A stretch of 64,000 nt of DNA. Origin: Loripinus fragilis (Eukaryota > Mollusca > Bivalvia > Lucinida > Lucinidae). How positions within the stretch are numbered: the stretch's first letter is position 1; each line of letters starts with the position of its first letter. A program made the position numbers and the translations under genes. The stretch covers positions 67,067,753 to 67,131,752 of the forward strand of contig OZ026525.1 in the NCBI GenBank assembly GCA_964019695.1, in the 5' to 3' direction. This document shows, piece after piece, positions 22,341 to 62,820 of this stretch. The notes under the pieces are model-generated. The model was not told the origin of the DNA. It did not search any database and worked only from the letters and a program-made list of their open reading frames with translations.

Positions 22341-22346
22341 TTTGTA

Positions 22347-22500
22347 ACTCTTTCCGAAATAAAAAGGGATTTTCCGATGGAATTCCCTTTTTTTGATAGT
22401 AAAACATAAATATGGATATAATCATATTTGAGTTTTGCATCGTTATAAAGTACAAGAATGATGGTACAATGTAATTTATTTTTCCTATGAACAGAGGAAA
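22347..22500 (+). repeat. Left terminal inverted repeat of the giant element
   Basis: It starts ACTCTTTCCG and contains a subterminal imperfect hairpin (AAAAAGGGATTTTCC, GAT, GGAATTCCCTTTTT). It then matches the reverse complement of 54960-55113 almost base for base, including a GATATAATCATATTTGAG block. Confidence 0.85.
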
Positions 22501-25500
22501 TTTCCTCTGTTGTGACTGCTCAAAATGCAGAAATTGATGTCCTTAAAATATGTTCCAAGTAGTGTATTTGTCCTAATAGTTTAAAGAAAAGTTCAAATAT
22601 CAATTTGTATATCAAGTAGAAATCGGTTTACAACAGAGGAAATTTCCTCTGTTTTGACAATGGGACAAGTCTACCTTTAATCACAATCAGATTTTCATCT
22701 TATTTCAGAACAGAGGAATTTTCCTACATTTTACTTTCAGTATCTCAACAATATGTAAATAGAGTGACCTTTACAACAGAGGAATTTTCCTCTGTTTAGT
22801 AGTTCGAAAATTTCCTATAGTGACTTCCAGAATTGATTAATTTTACATTCTAGTCATAACTTAAATATTACCAATTTCCAACAGAGGAATTTTCCTCCGT
22901 TCGGTAATTCAACAATTTCCTATAGCGAGAATTAAGAGCCCATTTTCCTATCATAAAAATGAAGAGCCCTGTTTGTTATCATTTCCATCTTAATCATAAC
23001 TTAATTGTTTCCACTTTTCAACAGAGGATTTTTCCTCCGTTTTCCATTCTGTATCTTGACAATCAATAAAAGTAGAGAAAATTTTGCAACAGAGGAATTT
23101 TCTGTTCAATAGTTCGACGATTTCCTATAGTGACTTACAGAACTGAGAGCCTAACTTGTTTGACATTCTAGTCATAACTTAAATATTACCAATTTTCCAA
23201 CAGAGGAATTTTCCTCCGTTCGGTAATTCAACAATTTTCTATTTGGAGAATTAAGAGCCCACTTTCCTATAATGAAAATGAAGAAACCCATTTGCTATCC
23301 TTTCCATCTTAACATACATATCCATCATATCTTAAATGTTTCCAATTTTCAACAGAGGAATTTTCCTCCATTTTCTATTCTGTAGAATATCGAGAATAAA
23401 TAGAAGGAGTGACCTTTACAACAGAGGAATTTTCCTCTGTTTAGTAGTTCGCCAATTTCCTATAGTTACTTCCAGAACTCTGAACCCAACTTGTTTGACA
23501 TTCTAGTCAAAACCTAAAATATCCAATTCTCCAACAGAGGAATTTTCCTCCGTTCGGTAATCCAACAATTTCCTTTTGCGAGAATTATGAGCCCATTTTC
23601 CTATGACGAAAATAAAGAACCCTGTTTATTATCATTTCCATCTTAGCATAAGTATCCATCATAACTTAAATGTTTCCAATTTTCAACAGAGGAATTTTCC
23701 TCCGTTTTCCATTCTGTATCGCCACAATCAATATAAGGAGTGAATTTTCCAACAGAGGAATTTTCCTCTTTTCAGTAGTTCGCCATTTTACCTATAGTGA
23801 TTACCAGAACTCTGAGTCCAACTTGTTTAGTATTTAAGTCATAACTTAAATATTACCAATTTTCCAACAGAGGAATTTTCCTCTGTTCGGTAATTCAACA
23901 ATTTTCTATTTGGAGAATTAAGAGCCCACTTTCCTATAATGAAAATGAAGAAACCCGTTTGCTATCCTTTCCATCTTAACATAAATATCCATCATATCTT
24001 AAATGTTTCCAATTTTCAACAGAGGAATTTTCCTCCATTTTCTATTCTGTAGAATATCAAGAATAAAAAGAAGGAGTGACCTTTACAACAGAGGAATTTT
24101 CCTCTGTTTAGTAGTTCGCCAATTTCCTATAGTTACTTCCAGAACTCTGAACCCAACTTGTTTGACATTCTAGTCAAAACCTAAAATATCCAATTCTCCA
24201 ACAGAGGAATTTTCCTCCATTCGGAAATCCAACAATTATGAAGAACCCTGTTTATTATCATTTCCATCTTAGCATAAGTATCCATCATAACTTAAATGTT
24301 TCCAATTTTCAACAGAGGAATTTTCCTCCGTTTTCCATTCTGTATCGCCACAATCAATATAAGGAGTGAATTTTCCAACAGAGGAATTTTCCTCTGTTCA
24401 GTAGTTCGCCATTTCCCTATAGTGATTACCAGAACTCTGAGTCCAACTTGTTTAGTATTTAAGTCATAACTTAAATATTACCAATTTTCCAACAGAGGAA
24501 TTTTCCTCTGTTCGGTAATTCAACAATTTTCTATTTGGAGAATTAAGAGCCCACTTTCCTATAATGAAAATGAAGAAACCCGTTTGCTATCCTTTCCATC
24601 TTAACATAAATATCCATCATATCTTAAATGTTTCCAATTTTCAACAGAGGAATTTTCCTCCATTTTCTATTCTGTAGAATATCGAGAATAAATAGAAGGA
24701 GTGACCTTTACAACAGAGGAATTTTCCTCTGTTTAGTAGTTCGCCAATTTCCTATAGTTACTTCCAGAACTCTGAACCCAACTTGTTTGACATTCTAGTC
24801 AAAACCTAAAATATCCAATTCTCCAACAGAGGAATTTTCCTCCATTCGGAAATCCAACAATTATGAAGAACCCTGTTTATTATCATTTCCATCTTAGCAT
24901 AAGTATCCATCATAACTTAAATGTTTCCAATTTTCAACAGAGGAATTTTCCTCCGTTTTCCATTCTGTATCTCCACAATCAATATAAGGAGTGAATTTTC
25001 CAACAGAGGAATTTTCCTCTGTTCAGTAGTTCGACAATTTCCTATAGTGATTTCCAGAACTTGGAGTCCAACTTGTTTAATATTCAAGTCATAACTTAAA
25101 TGCGACCAATTTTCCAACAGAGGAATTTTCCTCTGTTCAGTAGTTCAATAATTTCCTATAGTGACTTCCAGAACTCTGAGCCCAACTTATTTGACATTCT
25201 AGTCATAACTTAAATATTGCCAATATTCCAACAGAGGAATTTTCCTCCGACCATAATTTAACAATTTCCTATTGTGAAAATAAAAGCCCACTTTCATATA
25301 ATGAAAATGAAGAACCATGTTTGTTATCATTTCCATATTAACATAAATAACCATCATAACTTAAATGTTTCCAATTTTCAACAGAGGAGTTTTCCTACAT
25401 TCTCCATTCAGTTTCTCGACAATCAATAAAAGGAGTGAATATTACAACAAATGAATTTTCCTCTGTTCAGTAGTTCTACAATTTCCTATAGTGACTTCCA

Positions 25501-25609
25501 GAACTCCAAACCCAACTTTTTTGACATTCTAGTAAAAACCTAAAATATATCCAGTTTTCCTCCTTTCGGTAATTCAACAATTTCTAATTACGAGAATTTA
25601 GAGCCTACT
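22490..25609 (+). repeat. Palindrome-based tandem array, left arm
   Basis: A 22-bp near-palindrome (AACAGAGGA, four-base centre, TCCTCTGTT) recurs every 65-150 bp, separated by a few spacer types (a TCCTATAGTGACTTCCAGAA type, a CATTTCCATCTTA type). Outermost copies are perfect palindromes with AAATTT centres. Inner ones usually have ATTTTCC, so their orientation can be read. Higher-order duplication is visible: a TTCTATTCTGTAGAATATC-containing block recurs near 23369, 24033 and 24660 (about 630-665 bp). Confidence 0.9.
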
Positions 25610-26843
25610 TGAAGCTTTTAACTCTACCTCCATATATTTAGATGACTAACTTAATATTGATAATCCTTATTTTGAACAAATGGTAGGTCAGATATATCCC
25701 ACTGAACTTCAGTTAAATAAGGCAAATTCTTCTGATACTGAAGCTCCATTTTTGGACTTGAACTTGTCAATAACAAATGGCATAGTTTCTTCTAAAATTT
25801 ATGATAAACGGGATGGTTTTAATTTTGAAATAGTAAATTTTCCATTTCTTGATGGAGATCTTCCTCGCTCTCCTTCCTATGGTGTATACATTTCTCAGCT
25901 TATTCGTTTTGCTAGAGTGTGTTCTAATGTTTATGACTTCAACAACAGAAACTTATTTTTTACTGCTAAATTATCAAAATAAGGTTATAGATATCATAAA
26001 ATTCGAAAAGCATTTTCTTAATTCTACCACAGACACTCAGAGTTAATTGTTAAATACAACATTGGGTTAAATACTCTTCTGCAACAAGGCATATCAGAAC
26101 CTATATTTTATGGTGATTTAGTCTATAAATTCAAACGATTGTTGGAAGGGTTGGATATAACTTGGATATCATGCGACAGTCTGCATGCCTAGTATTAAAC
26201 ACAATCACGGTTTATAGCTATGGTTTCCTCTTTAATTGCACGATGGTGGGTCAGGCCTCAGACTCTATGACGGCTCTGGCGTAAAGCTTTAATCGGTGGG
26301 TTGGTGCCTCATGCTTATCTGTAGCTGGACCCACCGTGGCTCAACTTGAGGTTTTCTTTAGCTCTGACTATCTGTGAGTCATGAGCCCTTTTCTTTGTTT
26401 CATCATGGTGTAGTTATTTGATTAGAGTGTTTTTTCCATGATGATACATTGCATTAGTTAGATGGCCTCCATGCGAGCTGAACATTTCTTGTACTTCAAC
26501 AACAGCAGAATCTAGGGCGAAGATTTGGTACCAGTAAAATGCATTTAAGCCCCCTGGTGGCTTAGACTGCTGTCCGTTTTAAGGTGGTGGTTCTGTTGTT
26601 GTTGACTTTTTGTTTATTGTTATTCCCACTGTGGGAGTCTGTAATTGTTCTATGTTTTGTTGTATGCTACTTTATGTTCTTTCTAGTATTGCAATCATCT
26701 TGATGGGGAAGGGAGAGCTGATTGCTTTGCTTAATTTCTCTTCCTGGTGTCTCGTGATGGTTGAGCGGCTCTTCCTTGGGTGACACAGGGTTGTCTGCAG
26801 TTTGTGATTGTGGTATTTCCTGAACATACTCACTTACTATTAT
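25610..26843 (+). pseudogene. Reverse-transcriptase C-terminal fragment inserted in the left arm
   Basis: The frame from about 25680 reads QIYPTELQLNKANSSDTEA, PFLDLNLSI, IYDKRDGFNFEIVNFPFLDG, PRSPSYGVYISQLIRFARV and DFNNRNLFFTAKL. It then has an in-frame stop (25980) and continues in pieces with YRYHKIRKAF, SEPIFYGDLVYKF and similar to about 26150. The rest is non-coding 3' sequence. The type is the RT C-terminus seen also at 10951-11585. The right arm lacks it: there the flanking sequences GAGCCTACTT and TGTTCAATATTTCTGTCT are contiguous (reverse complement near 53085-53110). It is therefore an insertion private to the left arm. Non-functional. Confidence 0.75.
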
Positions 26844-26985: not shown

Positions 26986-29900
26986 CCAAGCAACAAACAG
27001 ATTGATCCCTATCAGGTCCAGACAGAATGTCGGGCCTGATCTGGGTCCAAATTGTTTGAAAGGGTTATCAGCAGATGACAATGTCATGAAAAAGTTTAAC
27101 GCAAAGTTGAAATACATCAGTTCAACTTGAACTTGTCATAACCTCTAAAGTGTCAAACAGTTTTGACCCCTATCATTTCCGGACAGAATGTCGGGCCTGA
27201 TCTGGGTCCAAATTGTTTGAAACACTTATCAACAGATGTCATATGCGGACAAAGTCATGTAAAGGTTTAAGGCAACAATAAAACATTGGTTCAACTCCAG
27301 CTTGTTGTAACCCATAAAGCAGCAAACAGCTTGGACCCCTATCAGGTCCAGACAGAATGTCGGGCCCGATCTGGGTCCAAATTGTTTGAAAGGGTTATCA
27401 GCAGATGACAATGTCATGTAAAGATTGTCATGTTTAAGTTTAACGTCATGTTTAAGTTTAACGCAAAGTTAAAATACATCGGTTCAACTTCAACTTGTCA
27501 TAACCTCTAAAGTGTCAAATAGTTTTGACCCCTATCAGCAGATGACAATGTCATGTAAAGATTGTCATGTTTAAGTTTACTTTCATGATTAAGTTTAACA
27601 CAAAGTTAAAATACACTGGTTCAACTTCAACTTGTCATAACCTCTAAAGTGTCAAACAGTTTTGACCCCTATCAGCTTCAGACAGAATGTCAGGCCTGAT
27701 CTGGGTCCAAATTGTTTGAAACGATTATCAGCAGATGACAACGTCATGTTAAAGTTTAATGCACAGTTAAAATACATCTGTTCAACTTAAACTTGTCATA
27801 ACCTCTAAAGTGTCAAACAGTTTGGATCCCTATCAGGTCCAGACAGAATGTGGGGCCTGATCTGGGTCCAAATTGTTTGAAAGGGTTATCAGCAGATGAC
27901 AATGTCATTTAAAAGTTTAATGCATAGTTAAAAAACATGGGTTCAACTTCAACTTGTCATAACTTCTAAAGTGTCAAGCAGTTTGACCCCTATCAGGTCC
28001 CGACAATTGTTTGGGCCTGATCTGCGTCCAAATTGTTTGAAAGGAATATCAGCAGAAGACAATGTCATGTAAAAGTATAATGCATAGTTAAAAAACATCG
28101 ATTCAACTTCAACTTGTCATAACCTCTAAAGTGTCAAACAGTTTGACCCCTATCAGGTCCAGACAGAATGTGGGGCCTGATCTGGGTCAAAATTATCTCA
28201 GAGGGTTATCAGCAGATGACAATGTCATGTTTAAGTTTAACACAAAGCTAAAATACATTGGTTCAACTTTAATTTGTCATAACCTCTAAAGCTTCATACA
28301 GTTTAACCCCTATCAAGCCCAGACAGAATGTTGGGCCTGATCTGGGTCCAAATTGTTTGAAATGGTTATCAGCAGATGACAATGTCACGTAAAAGTTTAA
28401 CGCATAGTTGAAATACATCGGTTCAACTTCAACTTGTCATAACCTCTAAAGTGTCAAACAGTTTAACCCCTATTAGGTCCTGACAGAATGTTGGGCCTGA
28501 TCTGGGTCTAAATTGTTTGAAAGGGTTATCAGCAGATGACAATGTCATGTAAAAGTTTAACGCAAAGTTAAAATACATGGGTTCAACTTCAACTTTTCAT
28601 AACCTCTAAATTGTTTAGCTGTTTGGACCCCTATCAGGTCCGGACAAATTTGGCCTGATCTGGGTCTAAATTGTTTGAAATGGTTATCAGCAGATGACAA
28701 TGTTATGTTAAAGTTTAAATCAAAGTTAAAATAAATTGGTTCAATTATAACTTGTCATAACCTCTAACGTGTCCAATAGTTTTGACCCCTATCAGGTGCG
28801 GGCAGAATGTCGGGCCTGATCTGGGTCCAAATTACTTAAATGGGTTATCAGCCGATGACAATAACATGTTAAGGTTTAAAAGTTAAAAGACATCGGTTCA
28901 ATTTCACCTTTTCATAACCCCTAAAGTTTTTAACAGTTTGGACCCCTATCAAGTCCAGACAAATTCGGGCCTGATCGGGGTCTAAATTGTTTGAAATGGT
29001 AATCAGCAGATGGAAGTGTCATGTTTAAGTTTAAATCAAAGTTATAATACATTGGTTCTATTTCAACTTGTCAAAACCTCTAAAGTGTCAATAGTTTTGA
29101 CCCCTATCAGGTGCCGGCAGAATTTCAGGCCTGATCTGCGTCAAAATTACTTGAAAGTATTATCAGCAGATGACAATGTCATGTTAAAGTTTAACGCATA
29201 GTTATAATACATCGGTTCAACTTCAACTTGTCACAACCTCTAAAGTGTCAAACAATTTTTACCCCTATCAGGTCCAGACAGAATGTCCGGCCTGATCTGG
29301 GTCCAACTTGTTTGAAAGGGTTATCAGCAGATGACAACTTCATGTTAAAGTTTAATGCAAAGTTAAAATACATCGGTTCAACTTCAAATTGTCATAACCT
29401 CTAAACTGTCAAACAGTTTGTACCCCTATCAGGTCCGGACAGAATGTTGGGCCTGATCTGGGTCCAAATTGTTTGAAAGGGATATCAGCAGATGACAATG
29501 TCATGTAAAAATTTAATGCATAGTTAAAATACATTGGTTCAACTTCAACTTGTCATAACCTCTAAAGTGTCATACAGTTTGACCCTTATCAAGTCAGGAC
29601 AGAATGTTGGGCCTGATCTGGGTCCAAATTGTTTGAAAGGGGTTATCAGCAGATGACAATGTCAAGTAAAGGTTTAACGCAAAGTTAAAATACATTGGTT
29701 CAACTTCAACTTTTCATAACCTCTAAAGTGTCAAACAGTTTGACCCCTTTCAGGTCCAGACAGAATGTCGGGCCTGATCTGGGTCCAAATTACTTGAATG
29801 GGTTACCAGCAGATGATAATAACATGTTAAGGTTTAACGCAAAGTTAAAATACATCGGTTCAATTTCACCTTTTCATAACCTCTAAAGTATTTAACAGTT

Positions 29901-32900
29901 TGGACCCCTATCAGGTTCAGACAGATTCGGGCCTGATCTGGGTCTAAATTGTTTAAAATGGTTATCAGCAGATGACAATGTCATATTAAAGATTAAATCA
30001 AAGTTAAAATACATTGGTTCAACTTCAAATTGTCATAACCTCTAAAGTGTCAAACAGTTTGACCCCTATCAGGTCCAGACAGAATGTGGGGCCTGAACTG
30101 GGACCAAATTATCTGAAAGGGTTATCAGCAGATGACAATGTCATGTTTAAAGTTAAATCAAAGTTAAATTACTTTGGTTCAATTTCAACTTGTCATAACC
30201 TCTAAAGTGTCAAATAGTCTTGACCCCTATCAGATGCGGGCAGAATGTCAGGCCTGATCTGGGTCCAAATTACTTGAATGGGTTACCAGCAGATGATAAT
30301 AACATGTTAAGGTTTAACGCAAAGTTAAAATACATCGGTTCAATTTCACCTTTTCATAACCTCTAAAGTATTTAACAGTTTGGACCCCTATCAGGTCCGG
30401 CAAATTCAGGCCTAATCTGGGTCTAAATTGTTTAAAATGGTTATCAGCAGATGACAATGTCATGTTAAAGATTAAATCAAAGTTAAAATACATTGGTTCA
30501 ATTTCAATTTGTCATAACCTCTAAAGTGTCAAACAGTTTGGACCCCAATTTTTACACCTATCAGGTCCAGACAGAATGTCAGGCCTGATCTGGGTCCAAA
30601 TTGTCTGAAAGGGTTATCAGCAAATAACAACGTCATGTTAAAGTTTAACGCAAAGTAAGAATACATAGGGTCAACTTCAAATTGTCATAACCTCTAAAGT
30701 GTCAAACAGTTTGTACCCTTATCAGGTCTGGACAGAATGTCTGGCCTGATCTGGGTCCAAATTGTTTGAAAGGGTTATCAGCAGATGACAATGTCATGTT
30801 TAAGTTTAACGCAAAGTTAAAATACATTGGTTCAACTTCAAATTGTCATAACCTCTAAAGTGTCAAACAGTTTGTACCCTTATCAGGTCTGGACAGAATG
30901 TCAGGCCTGATCTGGGCCCAAATTATTCGAAATGGTTATCAGCAGATGACAATGTCATGTTCAGGTTTAATGCAAAGTTAAAATACATTGGTTCAACTTC
31001 AACTTGTCATAACCTCTAACGTGTAAAACAGTTTGGACCCGGATCATGTCTGAACAGTTTGTCTGGCCTGATCTGGATCCATATTGTTTGAAACACTTAT
31101 CAGCAGATGTAATCTGCTGACAATGTCATGTAAAGGTTTAACGCATAGTTAAAATACATTGGTTCAACTTCAACTTGTTATAATCTCTTAAGTGTCAAAC
31201 AGTTTAACCCCTATCAGGTCCGGACAGAATGTTGGGCCTGATCTGGGTCCAAATAGTTTAAAAGGGTTATCAGCAGATGACAATGTCATGTAAAAAGTTG
31301 AAGCATAGTTAAAATACATTGGTTCAACTTCAACTTGTTATAACCTCTAAAGTGTCCAACAGTTTTACCCCTATCAGGTCCGGACAGAATGTCGGGCCTG
31401 TTCTGGGTCCAAACTACTTGAAAGGGTTATCAGCAGATGACAATGTCATGTGAAGGTTTAACGCAGAGTTTAAATAAATTGGTTCAAATTCAACTTGTCA
31501 TTACCTCTAAAGTGTCAAACAGCTTGGACCGAGATCAGGTCCAGACAGAATGTTGGGCCTGATCTGGGTCCAAAATGTTTGAAAGGGTTATCAGCTGATG
31601 ACAATGTCATGTTTAAGCTTAACACAAAGTTAAAATACATTGGTTCAACTTCAAAATGTCATAACCTCTAAAGTGTCAAACAGTTTGTACCCTTATCAGG
31701 TCTGGACAGATTATTGGGCCTGATCTGGGTCCAAATTGTTCGAAATGGTTATCAGCAGATGACAATGTCATGTTCAGGTTTAATGCAAAGTTAAAATACA
31801 TTGGTTCAACTTCAACTTGTCATAACCTCTAATGTGTCAAACAGTTTGGACCCGGATCATGTCCGAACAGAATGTCGGGCATGATCTGGGTCCATATAGT
31901 TTGAAACATTTATCAGCAGATGTCATCTGCTGACAATGTCATGTAAAGGTTTAACGCATAGTTAAAATACATTGGTTCAACTTCAAATTGTCATACGGTA
32001 ACCTCTAAAGTGTCAAACAGTTTGTACCCTTATCAGGTCTGGACAGAATGTTGGGCCTGATCTGAGTCCAAAATGTTTGAAACACTTATCAGCAGATGTC
32101 ATCTGCTGAAAAAGTAATGTAAAGGTTTGACGCAAAAATAAAATATTGGTTCAACTCCAACTTGTCATAACCTCTAAAGTGTCAAACAGTTTAAACCCCT
32201 TTCAGGTCCGGACAGAATGTCAGGCCTGATCTGGGTCCAAAATGTTTGAAATGGTTATCAACAGATGACAATGTCATGCTTTAGTTTAACACAAAGTTAA
32301 AATACATCGGTTCAACGTAAACATGTCAAAACCTCTAAAGTGTCAAACAGTTTGATCCCTATCAGGTCCGGACAGAATGTCAGGCCTGATCTGGGTCAAA
32401 ATTGTTTGAAAGGTTTATCAGCAGATGACAACGTCATGTAAAAGTTTAATGCATAGTTAAAATATCGGTTCAACTTCAACTTGTCATAACCTCTGAAGTG
32501 TCAAACACTTTGGACCCCTATCAGGTCTGGACAGAATGTCGGGCCTGATCTGGGTCCAAATTGTTTGAAAGGGTTGTCAGCAGATGACAATGTCATGTCA
32601 AGGTTTAACGCAAAGAAAAATACATCGGTTCAACTTCAACTTGTCATAACCTCTAAAGTGTCAAATAGTTTGGACCCCTAACAGAGGTGGGCAGAATGTT
32701 GGGCCTGATCTGGGTCCAAGTTACTTGAAAGGGCTATCAGCAGATGACAATGTCATGTTAAGGTTTACGCAAAGTTAAAATACATCAGTTCAACTTCAAC
32801 TTGTCATAACCACTAAAGTGTCAAACAGTTTGGACCCGGATCAGGTCCGGACAGAATGTTGGGCCTGATCTTGGTCCAAATTGTTTGAAACACTTATCAG

Positions 32901-35900
32901 CAGATGTCATCTGCTGACAAAGTCATTGTAAAGGTTTAACGCAAAAATAAAACATTGGTTCAACTCCAACTTGTCATAACCTCTAAAGTGTCAAAGAGTT
33001 TGAATCCCTATCAGGTCCAGACAGAATGTCGGGCCTGTTCTGGGTCAAAACTACTTGAAAGGGTTATCAGCAGATGACAATGTCATGTAAAGGTTTAACG
33101 CAGAGTTAAAATACATTGGTTCAACTTCAACTTGTCGTAACCTCTAAAGTGTCAAACAGCTTGGACCGAGATCAGGTCCAGACAGAATGTTGGGCCTGAT
33201 CTGAGTCCAGAATGTTTGAAACACTTATAAGCTGATATCATCTGCTGACAAAGTCATGTAAAGGTTTGACGCAAAAATAAAATATTGGTTCAACTCCAAC
33301 TTGTCATAATCTCTAAAGTGTCAAACAGTTTGGACCCCTTTCAGGTCCCGAGAGAATGTCGGGCCTGATCTGGGTCCAAATTGTTTGAAAGGGTTATCAA
33401 CAAATTACAATGTCATGTTTAAGTTTAACGCAAAATTAAAATACATCAGTTCAACTTCAACATGTCATAACCTCTAAAGTGTCAAACAGTTTGACCCATA
33501 TCAAGTCCGGACAGAATACCAGGCCTGATCTGGGTCCAAATTGTTTGAAAGGGTTATCAGCAGATGACAATGTCATGTAAGTATTTAAGGCAAAGTTAAA
33601 ATACATGGGTCAACTTCAACTTGTTATAACCTCCAAAGTGTCAATCAGTTTTGACCCCTATCAGGTCTGACTGTCATCTTCAACTTGTCATAACCTCTAA
33701 AGTGTCAAACAGCTTGGACCGGGATCAGGTCCGAACAGAATGTTGGGCTTGATCTGAGTCCAAAATATTTGAAACACTTATCAGCAGATGTCATCTGCTG
33801 ACAAAGTCATGTAAAGGTTTAACGCAAAAATAAAATATTGGTTCAACTCCAACTTGTCATAAGCTCTAAAGTGTCAAACAGTTTGACCGTTATCCATTCC
33901 GGACAGAATGTCTGGCCTGATCTGGGTCCAAATTGTTTGAAAGGGTTATCAGCCAATGACAATGTCATGTAAAGATTTAAGGCAAAGTTAAAAAACATCG
34001 GTTCAACTTCAACTTGTTATTACCTCCAATGTGTCAAACAGTTTTGACCCTTATCAGGTCTGGACAGAATGTCAGGCCTGATCTGGGTCAAAATTGTTTG
34101 AAAGGTTTATCAGCAGATGACAATGTCATGTAAAAGTTTAAAGCATAGTTAAAATATATCGGTTCGACTTCAACTTGTCATAACCTCTAAAGTGTCAAAC
34201 AGTTTGGACCCCTATCAGGTCCAGACAGAATGTCGGGCCTGATCTGGGTCAAAATTGTTTGAAAGGGTCGTCAGCAGATGACAATGTCATTCAAGGTTTA
34301 ACACAAAGAAAAATACATCGGTTCAACTTCAACTTGTCATAACCTCTAAAGTGTCAAATAGTTTGGACCCCTTACAGGTGTGGGTAGAATGTCAGACCTG
34401 ATCTGGGTCCAAATTACTTGAAAGGGCTATCAGCAGATGACAATGTCATGTTAAGGTTTACGCAAAGTTAAAATACATCAGTTCAACTTCAACTTGTCAT
34501 AACCTCTAAAGTGTCAAACAGCTTGGACCAGGATCAGGTCCGGACAGAATGTTGGGCCTGATCTGAGTCCAAAATGTTTGAAACACTTATCAGCAGATGT
34601 CATCTGCTGACAAAGTCATGTAAAGGTTTTATGCAAAAATAAAATATTGATTCAACTCCAACTTGTCATAACCTCTAAAGTGTCAAGCAGTTTCGACCCT
34701 TTCAGGTCCGCAGTGAATGTAGGGCCTGATCTTGGTCCAAATTGTTTGAAAGGGTTATCAATAGATGACAATGTCAGGTTTAAGTTTTACGCAAAATTAA
34801 AATACATCAGTTCAACTTCAACATGTCATAACCTCTAAAGTGTCAAACAGTTTGACCCATATCAAGTCTGGACAGAATGTCAGGCCTGATCTGGGTCCAA
34901 ATTGTTTGAAAGGGTTATCAGCAGATGACAATGTCATGTAAAGATTTAAGGCAAAGTTAAAATACATTGGTCAACTTCAACTTGTTATAACGTCCAAAGT
35001 GTCAAACAGTTTTGACCCCTATCAGGTCCGGACAGAATGTCAGGCCTGATCTGGGTCAATATTGTTTGAAAGGTTTATCAGCAGATGACAATGTCATGTA
35101 AAAGTTTAACGCATAATTAAAATATATCGGTTCAACTTCAACTTGCCTTAACCTCTAAAGTGTCAAACAGTTTGGACCCCAATCAGGTCCGGACAGAATA
35201 ACCGGCCTGATCTGGGTCCAAATTGTTTGAGAGTGTTTTCAGCAGATGACAAGTCATGTCAATGTTTTACGCAAAGAAAAATACATCGGTTCAACTTCAA
35301 CTTGTCATAACCTGTAAAGTGTCGAACAGTTTTGACCCCTGTCAGGTCCGGGCAGAATGTCAGGCCTGATTTGGGTCCTAACTACAAGTAAGGGTTATCA
35401 GCAGATGACAATGTCATGTAAAGGTTTAATGCAGAGTTAAAATACATTGGTTCAACTTCAACATGTCTAAACCTCTAAAGTGTCAAACAGCTTGGACCGC
35501 GATCAGGTCTGGACAGAATGTTGGGCCTGATCTGGGTCCAAAATGTTTGAAACACTTATCAGCAGATGTCATCTTCTGACAAAGTCATGTAAAGGTTTAA
35601 TGCAATAATAAAATATTGGCTCAACTCCAACTTGTCATAAGCTCTAAAGTGTCATACAGTTTGGACCCCTTTCAGGTCCGGACAAAATGTCGGGCCTGAT
35701 CTGGGTCCAAATTTTTTGAAAGGGTTATCAACAGATGACAATGTCATGTTTAAGTTTAACGCAAAAGTAAAATACATCTGTTCAACTTCAACATGTCATA
35801 ACCTCCAAAGTGTCAAACAGTTTGACCCTTGTCAAGTCTGGACAGAATGTCTGGCCTGATCTGGGTCCAAATTGTTTGAAAGGGTTAACAGCAGATGACA

Positions 35901-39050: not shown

Positions 39051-39054
39051 GACG

Positions 39055-39510: not shown

Positions 39511-39850
39511 TTATTGCTTTGAAAACAAACCAGTTGTTTTCTCGAGTAACAGGGGAAACTATTTATCCATTTGATCACTTTAACCACTATAATAGACGGA
39601 TATCAAATAAAAGGCGTGGATCAGGCTTCGTAGATGCGCAGGCTGATCTTCATCTTTATTATTTTATTTTTTGTATACTAGAAGCTCTTTTCGATGTGAT
39701 GTTGCCGTTTTCTTTGGGTTGAATAACTTTTTTGAACACTATAGACAACTGTACTCGCTTGGCATGAAATAATTGTGCTCGTGATATGTTCGCGCAAAAA
39801 GGGTTCAAAAACATTAAAACAGGCCGGAGAGCGGCTTTAAAAACGTTTTT
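39510..39850. other. Non-coding DNA in the centre
   Basis: No recognisable product. Frames at 39519-39722 (plus) and 39659-39925 (minus) overlap repeat DNA and show no domain. Confidence 0.4.
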
Positions 39851-43355: not shown

Positions 43356-45610
43356 TGTGTTTCAAACAATTTGGACCCAGATCAGGCCCAACATTCTGTC
43401 CAGACCTGATAGGGGTCCAAACTGTTTGACACTTTAGAGGTTATGACAAGTTGAAGTTGAACCGATGTATTTTAATTTTGCGTTAAACTTAAACATGACA
43501 TTGTCATCTGCTGATAACCCTTTCAATCAATTTGGACCCAGATCAGGCCCGACATTCTGTCCGGACATGATAGGGGTCCAAACTGTTTGACACTTTAGAG
43601 GTTATGACAAGTTGAAGTTGAACCGATGTATTTTAATTTTGCGTTAAACTTAAACATGACATTGTCATCTGCTGATAACCCTTTCAAACAATTTGGACCC
43701 AGATCAGGCTCGACATTCTGTCCAGACCTGATAGGGGTAAAAACTGTTTGACACTTTAGAGGTTATGAAAAGTTGAAGTTGAACTGATGTATTTTAACTT
43801 TGCGTTAAACCTTTACATGACATTGTTGTCTGCTGATAGCCCTTTCAAACAATTTGGACCCAGATCAGGCACAACATTCTGTCCAGACCAGATAGGGGAC
43901 CAAATTGTTTGACACTTTAGAGGTAAGGACAAGTTGCAGTTGAACTGATGTAATGTAACTTTGCATTAAACTTTAACATGACCTTGTCATCTGCTGATAA
44001 CATTTTCAAACAATTTGGACCCAGATCAGACCCCACATTCTGTCCAGACCTGATCCGGGCCAAACTGTTTGACACTTTAGAGGTTAGGACAAGTTGCAGT
44101 TGAACTGATGTAATGTAACTTTGCATTAAACTTTAACATGACCTTGTCATCTGCTGATAACATTTTCAAACAATTTGGACCCAGATCAGACCCCACATTC
44201 TGTCCAGACCTGATAGGTGTCAAAACTGTTTGACACTTTAGAGGTTATGACAAGTGAAGTTTAAATGATGTATTTTAACTTTTCGTTAAGCTTAAACATG
44301 ACATTGTCATCTCTTAATAACCCTTTCAAATAATTTGGACCCAGATCAGGCCCGACATTCTGTCCAGACCTGATAGGGGTCAAAACTCTTTGACACTTTA
44401 GAGGTTCTGACAAGTTGAGGTTGAACCGATGTATTTTAACTTTGCGTTAAACCTTTACATGACCTTGTTATCTGCTGATAACCCTTTCAAACAATTTGGA
44501 CCCAGATCAGGCCCGACATTCTGTCCGGACCTGATTAGGGTCCAAACTGTTTGACGCTTTAGAGGTTATGATAAGTTGAAGTTGAACCAATGTTAACTTT
44601 GCATTAAGCCTTTACATGACATTGTCATCTGCTGATAACCCTTCCAAACAATTTGGACCCAGATCAGGCCCAACATTCTGTCCAGACCTGATAGGGGTCC
44701 AAACTGTTTGACACTTTAGAGGTTATGACAAGTTGAAGTTGAACCGATGTATTTTAATTTTGCGTTAAACTTAAACATGACATTGTCATCTGCTGATAAC
44801 CCTTTCAAACAATTTGGACCCAGATCAGGCTCGACATTCTGTCCAGACCTGATAGGGGTAAAAACTGTTTGACACTTTAGAGGTTATGAAAAGTTGAAGT
44901 TGAACTGATGTTTTTTAACTTTGCGTTAAACTTTTACATGACATTGTTGTCTGCTGATAGCCCTTTCAAACAATTTGGACCCAGATCAGGCCCAACATTC
45001 TGTCCGGACCAGATAGGGGACCAAATTGTTTGACACTTTAGAGGTTATGACAAGTTGGAGTTGAACCGATGTATTTTAACTTTGCGTTAAACCTTTACAT
45101 GACTTTATCAGCAGATGACATCTGCAGATAAGTGTTTCAAACAATTTGGACCCAGATCAGGCCCAACATTTTGTCCAGACCTGATCCGGGCCAAACTGTT
45201 TGACACTTTAGAGGTTAGGACAAGTTGCAGTTGAACTGATGTATTGTAACTTTGCATTAAACTTTAACATGACCTTGTCATCTGCTGATAACATTTTCAA
45301 ACAATTTGGACCCAGATCAGGTCCCACATTCTGTCCAGACCTGATAGGTGTCAAAACTGTTTGACACTTTAGAGGTTATGACAAGTGAAGTTGAAATGAT
45401 GTATTTTAACTTTGCATTAAACCTTTGCATGACATTGTCATCTCTTAATAACCCTTTCAAACAATTTGGACCCAGATCAGGCCCGAAATTCTGTCCAGAC
45501 CTGATAGGGGTCAAAACTGTTTGACACTTTAGAGGTTAGGACAAGTTGCAGTTGAACCGATGTATTGTAACTTTGCATTAAACTTTAACATGACCTTGTC
45601 ATCTGCTGAT
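43355..45610 (-). repeat. About 160-bp monomer array, right arm, inner part
   Basis: The same monomer as the left arm in reverse complement: CAATTTGGACCCAGATCAGG, CATTCTGTCC.GACCTGATA, GGGGTC.AAACTGTTTGACAC, TTTAGAGGTTATGACAAGTT. There are about 14 units. It is interrupted at 45610 by a TIR element. Confidence 0.92.
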
Positions 45611-47249
45611 CAGCGCTTGCACTAGTGGACGTTTTTGGCGTTTTTACGTCTGAAATTGGCTTTTGTACGCCATAAATCCAAAGGTCGGACGTACTCTGAC
45701 TTCCCCAAAAAATCTTGTACGCCCGTCGGCAATAGCCATGAAGTATATATCGGTATTGAGAATTTGGCCATTTGATCTCGCCGCCCTCTTCAGAAAGTCA
45801 AGTGTGCGTAACGGCAGTTATACTTGATATTGGAGAATTCATTCAGTGATTGACCAATGGGCGCTCAGGACAACTTCAGACCGCTCACTGCCTGCTGTGC
45901 CGATTTAGTTGACAGGTGTTGAATAATTATTGCGACGACCACATGAGTAATATTTTAGAGAAAAAGGTCTGTGTCGGGAAACACTTCCGTTTTTTTTGGT
46001 CCAAAATTTTGTTGCATTTCCTTCCAAATTTTATTCCAATGTTTGTTTAATTTTTGTTTGAAAAACGAGAGAACAATGTTTGTATACAAAATTTTACATT
46101 TCTGCAGTAGACATGATGTTTTTCTATCGGAATCAAATGCTAAAATCTGAGAAAAATCAGAAACTATCGATCTCCGTACTTACCCCACCCACTAGGCCAG
46201 CATTACAAAGAAAATAACGAGACAGTTGCATTTAGGAACCCGAGTTTTAAATATCATAACCAACACAACTTTTAAGCAATAAAGGCAAGGTCTTTTAACA
46301 TCATAAAGAGCTAGCAAATTTAGCTTAAATATTTTTGTGAGTTATCTAAAATTTGCAGATTTTTTTAACAAGTTGAGCTTTTAAAAGAACTTTGGCTAGG
46401 CCTTGAGTCAAAGCAGGTATTTTTGAGTTTTAGATAAATTCTCTCCAAATTACAGCGCAAGAAAGGTTTCTTTATATCATAGAAGTCTTGCCAAACTTTC
46501 CCGTTCTCTCTGTCTTACCCAACACTTTTTACAACCCCCCACCCCCCCCCCCCCAAAAAAAAAAAAAAAACAGTCTGAAAGAGCTTTGGCAAGGAAAACC
46601 TATGTTGAAATTTTTCAGAAACCAATTGACAGCCCAACTCTTATGGGAATGCTCTGCCATATTTATAATAGAATTTGTAAGACTTGTCATCTATTTTTGT
46701 CCAGGAACCCAAAATTGTGGGCCCAGATCAGACTTCAAATAGAATAAACTGATCAGTGTTCACAATCTTGATTCTTGAGGCATTGGATGCTAGACAGATT
46801 GCTGAAACACTTATCTTTGAACTAGAAAAATGAAACATATTGCTTAGGAATAGTCAATTAATGACCCTTCTCTTTTAGGGGCAGTCTGATATGGGTCCAC
46901 AATGTTTTTGTTCATACCTGTTTGCAAACTTTGAATCATTGAATAGATATCAGAAGGACACAATAAAATATATTTCATCAGTTTCAACTTTTACATTGTT
47001 TAACGGAGTTGAACATAAACATGTTTGAAAATAAACACAAAAAAAATCTGTGTACATGAAACTAAGCATTGCTAACAACATCATGTTTAAAAAAATAGTA
47101 TCATTTTTTGGCACCCCACGGCGTAAACTTTAAATTTGGCACCCCACGACGCATGCATAGTTTGACTTCCACAAATTAGGCCTTTGACTTCCAAATCTCA
47201 AAGGGTGGAAGTCATGACTTCCTGTTTCAAAAAGTTAGTGCAAGCACTG
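45611..47249. mobile_element. 1.64-kb TIR element inserted in the right arm
   Basis: The left end CAGCGCTTGCACTA and the reverse complement of the right end, CAGTGCTTGCACTA, differ at one base. Target duplication TGCTGAT is exact on both sides (45604-45610 and 47250-47256) and lies within a 160-bp monomer that reads through once the insertion is removed. Inside, GACTTCC motifs recur near both ends, and a C/A homopolymer pair lies at 46530-46570. No transposase is recognised. The ends vaguely recall hAT elements, but the duplication is 7 rather than 8 bp, so the superfamily is open. Confidence 0.8.
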
Positions 47250-50200
47250 TGCTGATAACATTTTCAAACAATTTGGACCCAGATCAGGCCCCATATTCTG
47301 TTCGGACCTGATAGGTGTCCAAACTGTTTGACACTTTAGAGGTTATGATAAGTGAAGTTGAAATGATGTATTTTAACTTTTCGTTAAGCTTAAATATAAC
47401 ATTGTCATCTCTTAATAACCCTTTCAAACAATTTGGACCCAGATCAGGCCCCACATTCTGTCCAGACCTGATAGGGGTCAAAACTCTTTGACACTTTAGA
47501 GGTTCTGACAAGTTGAGGTTGAACCGATGTATTTTAACTTTGCGTTAAACCTTTACATGACCTTGTTATCTGCTGATAACCCTTTCAAACAATTTGGACC
47601 CAGATCAGGCCCGACATTCTGTCCGGACCTGATTAGGGTCCAAACTGTTTGACGCTTTAGAGGTTATGAAAAGTTGAAGTTGAACCAATGTTAACTTTGC
47701 ATTAAGACTTTACATGACATTCTCATCTGCTGATAACCCTTCCAAACAATTTGGACCCAGATCAGGCCCAACATTCTGTCCGGACCAGATAGGGGACCAA
47801 ATTGTTTGACACTTTAGAGGTTATGACAAGTTGGAGTTGAACCGATGTATTTTAACTTTGCGTTAAACCTTTACATGACTTTATCAGCAGATGACATCTG
47901 CAGATAAGTGTTTCAAACAATTTGGACCCAGATCAGGCCCAACATTTTGTCCAGACCTGATCCGGGCCAAACTGTTTGACACTTTAGAGGTTAGGACAAG
48001 TTGCAGTTGAACTGATGTAATGTAACTTTGCATTAAACTTTAACATGACCTTGTCATCTGCTGATAACATTTTCAAACAATTTGGACCCAGATCAGGCCC
48101 CACATTCTGTCCAGACCTGATAGGTGTCAAAACTGTTTGACACTTTAGAGGTTATGACAAGTGAAGTTTAAATGATGTATTTTAACTTTTCGTTTAGCTT
48201 AAACATGACATTGTCATCTCTTAATAACCCTTTCAAACAATTTGGACCCAGATCAGGCCCTACATTCTGTCCAGACCTGATAGGCGTCAAAACTCTTTGA
48301 CACTTTAGAGGTTCTGACAAGTTGAGGTTGAACCGATGTATTTTAACTTTGCGTTAAACCTTTACATGACCTTGTTATCTGCTGATAACCCTTTCAAACA
48401 ATTTGGACCCAGATTAGGCCCGACATTCTGTCCGGACCTGATTAGGGTCCAAACTGTTTGACGCTTTAGAGGTTATGAAAAGTTGAAGTTGAACCAATGT
48501 TAACTTTGCATTAAGCCTTTACATGACATTGTCATCTGCTGATAACCCTTCCAAACAATTTGGACTCAGATCAGGCCCAACATTCTGTCCGGACCTGATA
48601 GGGGTCCAAACTGTTTGACACTTTAGAGGTTATGACACGTTGGAGTTGAACTGATGTATTTTAACTTTGCGTTAAACCTTTACATGACTTTGTCAGCAGA
48701 TGACATCTGCAGATAAGTGTTTCAAACAATTTGGACCCAGATCAGGCCCAAAATTCTGTCTCAACCTGATCCGGGTCCAAACTGTTTGACACTTTAGAGG
48801 TTATTAAAAGGTGAAATTGAACCGATGTATTTTAACTTTGTCATCTGCTGATAACCCTTTCAAGTAATTTGGTCCCAGAGCAGGGCTGACATTCTGCCCT
48901 CACCTGATATGGGTCAAAACTATTTGACACTTTAGGGGTTATGACAAGTTGAAATTGAAACAATGTATTTTAACTTTGACTTAAACTATAAAGAGACATT
49001 GTCATCTGCTGATAACCATTTCAAACAATTTAGACCCAGATCTGGCCCGACATTCTGTCCGGACGTGATAGGGGTCCAAACTGTTTCAAACTTTAGAGGT
49101 TATGAAAAGTTGAAGTTGAACTAATGTATTTCAACTTTGCGTTAAACTTTAACATGACATTGTCATCTGCTGATAACCCTTTCAAACAATTTGGACCCAG
49201 ACAGGCCAGTCATTCTGTCAAGACCTGATAGGGGTCCAAACTGTTTGACACTTTAGAGGTTATGAAAAGTTGAAGTTGAACTGATGTATTTTAGCTTTGC
49301 GTTAAACCTTTACATGACATTGTCTTCTGCTGATAGCCCTTTCAAACAATTTGGACCCAGATCAGGCCCAAAATTCTGTCCGGACCTGATAGGGGTCCAA
49401 ACTGTTTGACACTTTAGAGGTTATGACAAGTTGGAGTTGAACCGATGTATTTTAACTTTACCTAAACCTTTACAGGGACTTTGTCAGCAGATGACATCTG
49501 CAGATAAGTGTTTCAAACAATTTGGACCCAGATCAGGCCCAACATTTTGTCAGGACCTGATCTGGGTCCAAACTGTTTGACACTTTAGAGGTTATGACAA
49601 GTTGAAGATGAACTGATGTATATTAACTTTGCGTTAAACTTAAACATGACATTGTCATCTGCTGATAACCCTTTCAAACAATTTGGACCCAGATCAGGCC
49701 CGACATTCTGTCCAGACCTGATAGGGGTCAAAACTGTTTGACACTTTAGAGGTTATGACAAAGTGAGGTTAAACCGATGTATTTTATCTTTGCATTAAAC
49801 CTTTACATGACATTGTCATCTGCTGATAACCCTTTCAAACAATTTGGACCCAGATCAGGCCCAATATTCTGTCCGGACCTGATAGGGGTCCAAACTGTTT
49901 GACACTTTAGAGGTTATGACAAGTTGGAGTTGAACCAATGTATTTTAACTTTACGTAAACCTTTACAGGGACTTTGTCAGCAGATGACATCTGCAGATAA
50001 GTGTTTCAAACAATTTGGACCCAGATCAGGCCCAACATTTTGTCCGGACCTGATCCAGGTCCAAACTGTTTGACACTTTAAAGGTTATGACAAGTTGAAG
50101 TTGAACCGATGTATATTAACTTTGCGTTAAACTTAAACATGACATTGTCATCTGCTGATAACCCTTTCAAACTCTTTGGACCCAGATCAGGCCCGACATT

Positions 50201-52845
50201 CTGTCCAGACCTGATAGGGGTCAAAACTGTTTGAAACTTTAGAGGTTATGACAAAGTGAGGTTAAACCGATGTATTTTATCTTTGTATTTAACCTTTGCA
50301 AGACATTGTCATCTGCTGATAACCCTTTCAAACAATTTGGACCCAGATCAGGCCCAACATTCTCTCCGGACCTGATAGGGGTCCAAACTGTTTGACAGTT
50401 TAGAGGTTATGACAAGTTGGAGTTGAACTGATGTATTTTAACTTTGCGTTAAACCTTTACATGACTTTGTTAGCAGATGACATTTGCAGATAAGTGTTTC
50501 AAGCAATTTGGACCCAGATCAGGCCCAAAATTCTGTCTGGACCTGATCTGGGTCCAAACTGTTTGACACTTTAGAGGTTATGAAAAGGTGAAATTAAACC
50601 GATGTATTTTAACTTTCTGTTAAATCTTCACATGTTATTGTCATCTGCTGATAACCCTCTCAAGTCATTTGGTCCTAGATCAGGCCCGACATTCTGCCCA
50701 CACCTGATATGGGTCAAAACTATTTGACACTTTAGAGGTTATGATAAGTTGAAATTGAACCGATGTATTTTAACTTTGATTTAAACTTTAACATGACATT
50801 GTGATCTGCTGATAAGCATTTCAAACAATTTAGACCTAGATCAGGCCCCACATTCTGTCCGGACCTGATACGGGTCTAAACCGTTAAACACTTTAGCGGT
50901 TATAAAAAGTTGAAGTTGAACCGATGTATCTTAATTTTGCGTTAAACTTTTACATGACATTGTCATCTGCTGATAACCCTTTCAAACAATTTGGACCCAG
51001 ATCAGGCCCAACATTCTGTCAGGACCTGATAGGGGTTAAACTGTTTGACACTTTGGAGGTTATGACAAGTTGAAGTTGAACCGATGTATTTCAACTATGC
51101 GTTAAACTTTTACATGACATTGTCATCTGATGATAACCATTTCAAACAATTTGGACCCAGATCAGGCCCAACATTCTGTCTGGACCTGATAAGGGTTAAA
51201 CTGTTTGACGCTTTAGAGGTTATGACAAATTGAAGTTGAACCAATGTATTTTAATTTGCCTTAAACCTTTACATGACATTGTCATCTGCTGATAACCCTC
51301 TGAGATAATTTGGACCAAGATCAGGCCCAACATTCTTTCCGGACCTGATAGGGGTCAAAACTGTTTGACAATTTAGAGGTTATGTCAAGTTGAAGTTGAA
51401 CCGATGTATTTTAACTTTGCGTTAAACTTAAACATGACATTGTCATCTGCTGATAACCCTTTCAAACAATTTGGACCTAGATCAGGCCCCACATTCTCTC
51501 TGGACCTGATAGGTGTCCAAACTGTTTGACACTTTAGAGGTACTGACAAGTTGAAGTTGAACCGATGTATTTTAACTTTGCTTTTAACTTTAACAAGACG
51601 TTGTCATCTGCTGATAACCCTTTCAAACAATTTGGACCCAGATCAGGACCCACATTCTGTCAGGACCTGATAGGTGTCAAAACTGTTTGACACTTTAGAG
51701 GTTCTGACAAGTTGAAGTTGAACTGATGCATTTTAACTTTGCGTTAAACTTAAAAATGACATTGTCATCTGTTGATAACCCTTTCAAACAATTTGGACCC
51801 AGATCAGGCCCGTCATTCTGTCAGGACCTGATCCGGGTCCAAACTGTTTGACACTTTAGAGGTTATGACAAGTTGGAGTTGAACCAATGTATTATTTTTG
51901 CGTTAAACCTTTAAATGACATTATCATCTGCTGATAACCCTTTCAAACAATTTGGACCCAGATCAGGCCTGTCATTCTGTCTGGACCTGATAGGGGTCCA
52001 AACTGTTTGACACTTTAGAGGTTATGACAAGTTGGAGTTGAACCAATGTTTTATTTTTTTGTTAAACCTTTACATGACTTTGTCAGCAGATGACATCTGC
52101 TGATAAGTGTTTCAAACAATTTAGTCCCAGATCAGGCCCAACATTCTGTCCAGACCTGATCCGGGTCCAAACTGTTTGACACTTTAGAGGTTATGACAAG
52201 TTGAAGTTGAACCAATGTATTTTAACTATGTGCTAAACCTTTACATGACATTGTCATCTGCTGATAACCCTTCCAAACAATTTGGACCCAGATCAGGCCC
52301 AACATTCTGTCCGGACCTGATAGGTGTCCAAACTGTTTGACACTTTAGAGGTTATGACAAGTTGGAGTTAAAACAATGTTTTATTTTTGATTGAAACCTT
52401 TACATTGACTTTGTCAGCAGATGGCATCTGCAGATAAATGTTTCAAACAATTTGGACCCAGATCAGGCCCAACATTCTGTCTGGACCTGATCCGGGTCCA
52501 AACTGTTTGACACTTTAGAGGTTATAAAAAGGTGAAATCGAACTGATGTATTTTAACTTTGCATTAAACCTTTGCATCACATTGTCATCTGCTAATAACC
52601 CTTTCAAGTAATTTGGACCCAGATCAGGCCTGATATTCTGTCCGGACCTGATAGGGGTCAAAACTGTTTGACACTTTAGAGGTTATGACAAGTTGAAGTT
52701 GAACCGATGTATTTTAACTTTGTGTAATGTTTTACATGACATTGTCATCTGCTGATAACCCTTCCAAACAATTTGGACCCAGATCAGGCCCAACATTCTG
52801 TCCGGACCTGATAGGGGTCAAACTGTTTGACGCTTAGAGGTTAAA
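47250..52845 (-). repeat. About 160-bp monomer array, right arm, outer part
   Basis: Continuation of the right-arm array, about 35 units in reverse complement relative to the left arm. Longer variants with GACTTTGTCAGCAGATGACA and TCTGC.GATAAGTGTTTCAAA recur (47880, 48690, 49480, 49975, 50465, 52080, 52415), the mirror of the left-arm long variant. A segment near 44000-44200 and one near 47930-48120 are almost the same, which points to local amplification. Confidence 0.92.
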
Positions 52846-54980
52846 CTGTAATTAATGTACGACAGTAATATTGAACAAATTTGGCTCTTAATTCTTTCAT
52901 TTGGAAATTATTGAATTACCGAACAGAGGAAAATTCCTTTATTCTAAAATTGGTAATATTTCAGTAATTACAAGAATATCAAACAAGTTGTGCTCTGAGT
53001 TCTGAACGTCACTATATGAATCTGTAGAACTACTGAACAGACGAAATTACCTCTGTTCTAAATCTGTAATTAATGTTAGACAGAAATATTGAACAAAGTA
53101 GGCTCTTAATTCTCGCAATTAGAAATTGTTGAATTACTGAACAGAGGAAAAATGGTTATATTTTAGGTTTTTACTAGAATGTCAAAAAAGTTGGGTTTGG
53201 AGTTCTGGAAGTCACTATAGGAAATTGTAGAACTACTGAACAGAGGAAAATTCCTCTGTTGTACAATTCACTCCTGTTATTGATTGTCGAGAAACTGAAT
53301 GGAGAATGTAGGAAAATTCCTCTGTTGAAAATTAGAAATATTTTAGTTATGATAGATATTTATGTTACGATGGAAATGATAACAAACAGGGTTCTTCATT
53401 TTCATTATAGGAAAGTGGGCTTTTATTTTTGCAATAGGAAATTGGTGAATTACCGAATGGAGGAAAATTCCTCTGTTGGAATATTGGCAATATTTAAGTT
53501 ATGACTAGAATGTCAAACAAGTTGGGCTCAGAGTTCTGGAAGTCACTATAGGAAATTATTGAACTACCAAACAGAGGAAAATTCCTCTGTTGGAAAATTG
53601 GTCATATTTAAGTTATGACTTGAATATTAAACAAGTTGGACTGGGAGTTCTGGAAAACACTATAGGAAATTGTTGAATACTGAACAGAGGAAAATTCCTC
53701 TGTTGTAAAATTCACTCCTTTTATTGATTGTGGAGATACAGAATTGAAAACGGAGGAAAATTCCTCTGTTGAAAATTGAATTTATTTAAGTTATGATGGA
53801 TATTTATGCTAAGATGGAAATAATAATAAACAGGGTACTTCATCTTCACCATAAGAAAATGGGCTCTTAATTCTCGCAAAAGGAAATTGTTGAATTACCG
53901 AACGGAGGAAAATTCCTCTGTTGGAAAATTTGGATATATTTTAGGTTTTAACTAGAATGTCAAACAAGTTGGGTTCGGAGTTCTAGAAGTAACTATAGGA
54001 AATTGGCGAACTACTAAACAGAGGAAAATTCCTCTGTTGTAAAGGTCACTCCTTCTATTTATTGTTGATATTCTACAGAATAGAAAACGGAGGAAAATTC
54101 CTCTGTTGAAAATTGGAAACATTTAAGATATGATGGATATTTATGTTAAGATGGAAATGATAGCAAACGGGTTTCTTCATTTTCATTATAGGAAAGTGGG
54201 CTCTTAATTATCAAAATAGGAACTTGTTGAATTACCGAACGGAGGAAAATTCCTCTGTTGGAAAATTGGTAATATTTTAGTTATGACTAGAATGTCAAAC
54301 AAGTTAGGCTCTCAGTTCTGGAAGTCACTATAGGAAATTGTCGAACTATTTAACAGAGGAAAATTCCTCTGTTGTAAAATTTCTCTGCTTTTATTGATTG
54401 TCGAGATACAGAATGGAAAATGGAGGAAAATTCCTCTGTTGAAAAGTGGAAACATTTAAGTTATGATTAAGATGGAAATGTTAAAAAACATGGTCCTTCA
54501 TTTTTGGTATAGGAAAATGGGCTCTTAATTCTCGCAATAGGAAATTGTTGAATTACCGAACGGAGGAAAATTCCTCTGTTGGAAATTGGTAATATTTAAG
54601 TTATGACTAGAATGTAAAATAAATCAATTCTGGAAGTCACTATAGGAAATTTTCGAACTACTAAACAGAGGAAAATTCCTCTGTTGTAAAGGTCACTCTT
54701 TTTACATATTGTTGAGATACTGAAAGTAAAATGTAGGAAAATTCCTCTGTTCTGAAATAAGATGAAAATCTGATTGTGATTAAAGGAAGACTTGTCCCAT
54801 TGTCAAAACAGAGGAAATTTCCTCTGTTGTAAACCGATTTCTACTTGATATACAAATTGATATTTGAACTTTTCTTTAAACTATTAGGACAAATACAATA
54901 CTTGGAACATATTTTAAGGACATCAATTTCTGCATTTTGAGCAGTCACAACAGAGGAAATTTCCTCTGTTCATAGGAAAA
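52845..54980 (-). repeat. Palindrome-based tandem array, right arm
   Basis: Inverted counterpart of 22490-25609: AACAGAGGA and TCCTCTGTT with AAAAT-type centres (opposite to the left arm's ATTTT), and spacers such as GGAAGTCACTATAGGAAATT and TAAGATGGAAATGATA. It is shorter than the left array (about 2.1 against 3.1 kb) because the left has extra higher-order duplications. It has no RT insertion. Confidence 0.9.
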
Positions 54981-55113
54981 ATAAATTACATTGTACCATC
55001 ATTCTTGTACTCTATAACGATGCAAAACTCAAATATGATTATATCCATATTTATGTTTTACTATCAAAAAAAGGGAATTCCATCGGAAAATCCCTTTTTA
55101 TTTCGGAAAGAGT
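54960..55113 (-). repeat. Right terminal inverted repeat of the giant element
   Basis: Reverse complement of 22347-22500, ending CTTTTTATTTCGGAAAGAGT. The subterminal hairpin GGGAATTCCATCGGAAAATC is conserved, with only indel-level differences. Confidence 0.85.
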
Positions 55114-60326: not shown

Positions 60327-62103
<1,777 letters not shown>

Positions 62104-62738: not shown

Positions 62739-62820
62739 TTTCTCAAATCAATTTAGCATCCTTTACTGGATCCAGTGCCACAGGAAAGATATCTCGTTTG
62801 GTGCATTAGCCTATTTCTCA

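Follow-up and report, generated by a model that had tools for sequence, protein, structure and literature searches.

What kind of event places two long arrays of satellite DNA in mirror orientation around a common core? This question is raised by a 64,000-nucleotide stretch of the genome of the lucinid bivalve Loripinus fragilis (GenBank assembly GCA_964019695.1, contig OZ026525.1, positions 67,067,753 to 67,131,752), hereafter called the window. An initial annotation had drawn an inverted-repeat element at 22347 to 55113. We found that this element is real and that each of its ends lies one base further out, at 22346 and 55114 (32,769 bp; coordinates without a prefix are positions in the window), between two exact copies of TTGT. 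Elements with the same ends recur in the 1.99-Gb assembly that was searched, and we put at about 0.88 the probability that they are giant non-autonomous DNA transposons with terminal inverted repeats and foldback architecture, forming a young family in which the satellite is passive cargo.

At each end, the terminal repeat spans about 360 bp and already contains the first units of an array of 22-bp near-palindromes; further inward follow a 161-bp satellite and a core of 6.2 kb. In a self-comparison of the window, the outermost inverted match joined 22346-23909 to 53548-55114 (94.9% over 1,570 bp), and inverted matches of up to 5.8 kb, at 83-84% identity, linked the satellite zones of opposite arms. 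The three zones in mirror order proposed by the initial annotation were confirmed by Tandem Repeats Finder, which placed the palindrome arrays within 22709-25277 and 53434-54751 and the 161-bp arrays within 26994-37183 and 43360-52843, but the arms are not strictly symmetric. They measure about 14.9 kb and 11.8 kb, and their mirror symmetry is disrupted at two sites, where the left arm carries an extra block of about 1.23 kb and the right arm a nested insertion of 1,639 bp. The features of the element, with strand where one applies, are:

22342-22345: left 4-bp target-site duplication TTGT, from exact flank comparison
22346-22704, plus strand: left terminal inverted repeat, first letters AACTCTTTCCG, equal to the right end at 355 of 358 aligned bases
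22490-25610, plus strand: left array of 22-bp near-palindromes AACAGAGGAAWTTTCCTCTGTT with repeated spacings, outermost sites within the terminal repeat, from a motif scan
25611-26842, plus strand: one-sided block with a decayed retroelement fragment, recognised by its protein relatives and without counterpart in the right arm
26994-37190, plus strand: left 161-bp satellite array, from Tandem Repeats Finder and monomer extraction
37201-43359: core, 6,159 bp, with matches at ≥93% in other full copies
39101-42050: 126-161-bp tandem array inside the core, from Tandem Repeats Finder
43360-45610, minus strand: inner part of the right 161-bp satellite array, from Tandem Repeats Finder
45611-47249: nested 1,639-bp insertion with ends CAGYGCTTGCACTA and a 7-bp duplication TGCTGAT, at the same satellite position in copy C20
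47250-52843, minus strand: outer part of the right 161-bp satellite array, from Tandem Repeats Finder
52877-54970, minus strand: right array of 22-bp near-palindromes, outermost sites within the terminal repeat, from a motif scan
54756-55114, minus strand: right terminal inverted repeat, equal to the left end at 355 of 358 aligned bases
55115-55118: right 4-bp target-site duplication TTGT, from exact flank comparison

The retroelement fragment of the one-sided block is the reading frame 25650-25979, and a further, isolated AACAGAGGAAWTTTCCTCTGTT site lies at 26882 in the left arm. The insertion target of the window copy was a local repeat, of which a neighbouring unit is present at about 21807-22053. 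This unit represents a paralogous empty site: the joined flanks of the element aligned to it over the junction, in a gapped alignment, with a score of 261, against 190 and 90 for the single flanks and 226 and 126 for the best controls. A distinct tandem array with a unit of about 176-183 bp adjoins the element at 20738-21682.

The ends proved to be shared by many copies. Among 209 candidates found with a 394-bp end query, the best 40 were scored and showed 98-100% identity. A 30-base end pattern, allowing up to 3 mismatches, gave 190 matches in the whole assembly (96 forward, 94 reverse), and its reversed-letter control gave none. The initial annotation had proposed searching for the termini as paired inverted matches 5-50 kb apart, and such pairs do recur. 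When the first 100 of the 190 ends listed, each with 0 mismatches, were analysed, 78 of them formed 39 convergent pairs, where about 0.27 would be expected by random placement. These pairs ranged from 16,087 to 50,004 bp, with a median of 28,660 bp. We then compared flanks in 27 copies: the window copy, six other full copies, and 20 further copies represented by their two ends. Of these 27, 25 had an exact 4-bp target duplication, and none matched at 5 or 6 bp. The insertion target is AT-rich, without a strict motif; as left and right ends of different copies agreed at 4 bp in only 57 of 702 combinations, AT-richness alone cannot account for the duplications. The recurring pairs and the exact duplications thus support the first reading offered in the initial annotation, in which satellite DNA is spread by a giant foldback-like transposon of non-autonomous type.

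Copies of the family apparently moved very recently. The two ends of one copy differed by a mean of 0.9% (7 copies), equal to the mean between copies (0.9%, 84 comparisons). On C16, two copies of 31,976 bp each lie 164 kb apart and showed 0 differences in 14,895 bp compared (1,895 + 7,000 + 6,000), which included stretches of both satellite arms. Their flanks differ, and their target duplications are ATTT and ATAT, respectively. The family is young.

Seven full copies were compared throughout: the window copy (W), C20, C6, C494 (23 N), C19a, C13, and C601. Each of the six non-window copies carried the terminal repeat, palindrome arrays, and inverted 161-bp arrays. The same order up to the core, and then its mirror image, was common to all of them except C19a, which lacks the core. 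Of the 6,159 core bases, 6,097 were matched at ≥93% in C20, 6,159 in C6, 6,158 in C494, 0 in C19a, 5,485 in C13, and 5,303 in C601. W, C20, and C6 carry the one-sided block in the left arm, C494, C13, and C601 carry it in the right arm, and C19a has none. The terminal repeat is polymorphic (tctAcct or tctTcct), and in 6 of 6 block-bearing copies the variant marks the side of the block; the elements therefore retain polarity.

Between copies, the satellite arrays have mostly been passed on with their order intact. We extracted 585 complete 161-bp monomers from the seven full copies. For the 487 monomers left when the 98 cases involving C19a are set aside, the nearest relative lay in another copy's matching arm in 426 cases, in the same copy and arm in 48, in another copy's opposite arm in 11, and in the own copy's opposite arm in 2. 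The order of monomers was mostly conserved between copies other than C19a, with rank correlations of 0.71-1.00 (matches under 8%), and the nested insertion occupies the identical satellite position in the window copy and C20. Selection for a satellite hairpin, as RNA or cruciform, was considered and rejected: each monomer could form a 66-bp hairpin, yet across the 585 monomers the paired columns barely exceeded independence, a single column pair excepted.

Within the window, the 22-bp near-palindromes were restricted to the element. At up to 4 mismatches, AACAGAGGAAWTTTCCTCTGTT occurred 29 times in the left half of the window element and 19 times in the right half, and the remaining 31 kb of the window had 0 sites; at the same threshold, 10-29 sites with repeated spacings were present per half-element in the seven full copies. 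Beyond the first 360 bp, palindrome columns showed 0.023 differences per pair against 0.045 for the spacers (seven matching arms), and only 2 of 263 shifted masks were equally low. The palindromes look functional, and they are probably transposase-binding sites, by analogy with the foldback element Galileo, which shares the long inverted ends with internal tandem repeats and whose ends carry multiple transposase-binding sites (PMC3688188). The comparisons above establish a mobile unit with target duplications that moved recently and carried its satellite arrays along, and a slower change of the palindromes. We infer that an autonomous helper exists and that a transposase encoded elsewhere would recognise the 360-bp ends and the palindrome arrays starting inside them, and would excise the element. 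The transposase would move all DNA between the ends, and insertion would make the 4-bp target duplication. The inverted 161-bp arrays and the core would then be passive cargo moving as one unit, with 16-50 kb between paired ends, and the satellite arrays would lengthen and shorten over time.

To which class of transposons does such an element belong? It has the structure of foldback elements, with long inverted ends containing tandem repeats and a variable middle. P-superfamily elements make target duplications longer than 4 bp. The 4-bp duplication therefore argues against Mutator-type (8-10 bp) and P-type foldbacks; the comparison with Galileo made in the initial annotation holds for architecture, but kinship with the P superfamily is unsupported. 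Sola, Chapaev, Ginger, and Academ are candidate superfamilies with 4-bp duplications, the length found in 25 of our 27 copies. Polinton/Maverick elements have a 6-bp duplication and carry polymerase B and integrase genes; we rejected this class, as 0 of 27 copies matched at 6 bp, no frame of 150 amino acids was present in the seven full copies, and polymerase-like frames were confined to the middle of one outlier copy (47.4 kb). Helentrons are rolling-circle elements, and Helitrons and Helentrons have neither target duplications nor terminal inverted repeats. In contrast, the giant element has true inverted ends and target duplications, which do not fit this class.

Tetris, a foldback element of Drosophila virilis, is likewise non-autonomous, with inverted ends made of a flanking domain and a tandem-repeat domain (of about 220-bp repeats) around a variable middle; its repeats also supply satellite arrays, and no transposase was found (PMC4079207). 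However, its inverted ends reach at most 1,735 bp, its duplications measure 8-10 bp, and three structurally complete copies are described (PMC4079207), whereas the window copy has arms of 12-15 kb, the duplications are 4 bp, and 39 pairs were present among the first 100 of 190 ends. Galileo, of the P superfamily, has inverted ends of 0.5-1.2 kb and a THAP/P-type transposase (PMC3688188), in contrast to our element, where no THAP/P-type frame was seen in the copies read and the duplication is 4 bp. Tm1 of root-knot nematodes (Mutator/Foldback) shares composite inverted ends of variable length and several cargo types with common ends, but makes 9-bp target duplications and has a predicted Mutator-type transposase (PMC3169594). 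In Crassostrea gigas, satellite-like repeats are dispersed in a similar way by non-autonomous, satellite-carrying Helentrons (PMC7492417). A 20.5-kb CACTA element of soybean shows that transposons of such size class exist (PMC2613891). Searches of the open-access literature, assessed from titles and opening lines of abstracts, listed no element with satellite-built inverted arms of more than 10 kb, and passages of a bivalve transposon survey (PMC10294476) and of a review on satellites derived from transposons (PMC12628747) name none. The arms are several times longer than in the named foldback relatives, and this giant variant of the foldback-type architecture is new.

Among the alternatives, the one that survives best, although unlikely, regards the family as the decayed remains of a large, perhaps virus-like autonomous transposon that formerly encoded its own transposase or replication proteins; the satellite would have grown in these remains. 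Its support comes from the 47.4-kb copy, the centre of which (L082, C4:50139500-50149499) contains open frames with a C2H2 zinc-finger match under the curated cut-off and with motifs that, on reading and not by a Pfam match, look DNA-polymerase-B-like. This copy has the usual right satellite arm (L027), however, and its coding stretch therefore looks as if a virus-like element had entered the core later. In the 46.9-kb copy, the centre (L081, C15:22284000-22293999) instead holds a LINE-type insertion, a 1,073-amino-acid frame with a reverse-transcriptase domain. Since no frame of at least 150 amino acids was found in the seven full copies, an element-encoded protein was dropped as a candidate, and in eight partial copies the three frames of at least 120 amino acids all lay in the flank or crossed the element end.

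The satellite itself could also have been the driver, if inverted 161-bp arrays had spread by recombination with other 161-bp arrays and captured the ends later. This seems improbable to us, although the 161-bp repeat does occur within small dispersed repeats with other flanks. A satellite 30-mer, at up to 3 mismatches, had 6,653 matches genome-wide (control 0), with 523 in the seven full copies. Of the first 100 exact places listed, all on C1 and C2, 60 fell in six giant copies, three of them recognised from one listed end alone and taken to extend 45 kb from it, and the other 40 were spread over 30 small clusters. When scaled by the exact-to-inexact ratios (144/523 in the seven copies, 20/40 in ten small loci), about three quarters of the 161-bp monomers lie inside giant elements, a rough figure because the scaling overlooks small loci that lack any exact match. 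We examined ten of the 30 small clusters and counted 2-9 monomers in each, partial ones included, with the array of L073 reaching the end of its stretch. None of the ten had a terminal or palindrome motif, and outside masked repeat arrays none matched the window element except in one monomer-like stretch. Their monomers cluster together (37 of 40 when the own locus was excluded), with a consensus differing at 3 of 161 positions. When the 585 giant-element monomers were set against these 40, all 585 had their nearest relative in a giant element.

Some of these small loci belong to recognisable repeats. One is a small dispersed element with its left end near TCTCGGGACCGCACTTCC and 3-9 monomers; this left end was seen in L070, L071, L072, and L077, and L069 and L074 share other parts of the element. 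Near the left end lies a frame that we presume to be THAP-like. A second small repeat (L075, L076, L078) is 96-97% alike across three loci and holds about two 161-bp monomers.

A further argument against the satellite as driver comes from a 16,087-bp pair on C15. It is flanked by ATAT in exact duplicate, shares the first 60 bp of the giant elements unchanged, and has palindrome arms that extend over about 2.4 kb. About 9.6 of the 10.8 kb between its arms were unmatched by the seven full copies; a tandem-repeat search showed no 161-bp array in it, and the monomer profile only one partial stretch at about 6.3 kb. Ends and palindromes thus appear sufficient for mobility, and the satellite is cargo. 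With a 2.4-kb query from the C15 interior (best 40 of 7,028 candidates), we found a second, almost complete copy on C19 (98%) and, at C12 92043345-92057893 and C13 44839338-44877425, more distant relatives that form inverted pairs. These two pairs may be coding partners.

The weakest explanation holds that a satellite-bearing locus underwent segmental duplication in inverted orientation, or that the assembly wrongly folded one arm back on itself. It might be expected from arms that match in inverted orientation over kilobases and from tandem arrays that are hard to assemble, but it is very improbable given that the same termini, order, and one-sided block recur elsewhere, that 25 of 27 copies have 4-bp duplications, and that the arms of one copy are rarely closest relatives outside C19a (2 of 487 monomers), and the plain inverted duplication offered by the initial annotation is refuted for the family by the target duplications, the paralogous empty site, and the twin copies at different sites.

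Several observations weigh against a family of mobile, non-autonomous satellite carriers. Among the first 100 of 190 ends listed, 22 were unpaired. The exact duplication was missing in 2 of 27 copies, a 50.0-kb pair on C13 (3 bp match) and a 38.1-kb pair on C19. No transposase was found: the seven full copies had no frame of at least 150 amino acids, and in the C15 interior 35 frames of at least 55 amino acids were present, 6 of which were scanned against Pfam with one sub-threshold match (E 0.1). In the 98 monomer comparisons involving C19a, 67 nearest relatives lay within the same copy (25 in the opposite arm, 42 in the same arm) and 31 in another copy; the arrays of C19a therefore evolved more independently. 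Within the terminal 360 bp, palindromes were barely less variable than other positions (0.006 vs 0.009). The identical interior of the C16 twins could partly be an assembly effect, with one interior reused for both, and their two insertions are therefore firmer than their exact identity.

If the transposon reading is extended, the 360-bp ends and palindrome arrays might be a general long-range capture system, in which any DNA of about 11-47 kb between them is mobile, satellites are one of several cargoes, and dozens of palindromes serve as the assembly site for a transposase from a superfamily not yet described. We regard this extension as tentative and rather doubtful.

Two other features were seen in the window. 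A 635-bp inverted repeat (60993-61627 and 62105-62739, 99.8%) overlaps a GIY-YIG-domain frame (61344-62234, minus strand) and is perhaps a Penelope-like element. Two neighbouring open frames at 7568-9136 match the two halves of a cytochrome P450.

The route by which satellite DNA passes between chromosomes is an open question. For the family described here, a single assembly shows the vehicle together with its target duplications and with copies that seem very recent, and kilobases of satellite DNA would relocate in one jump. Elements of 16-50 kb with inverted arms of more than 10 kb would be expected to cause trouble in replication and recombination, yet many copies with near-identical ends exist. 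As both vehicle and recent copies are visible, insertion polymorphism, the growth of arrays between jumps, and the size limit of transposition become directly measurable.

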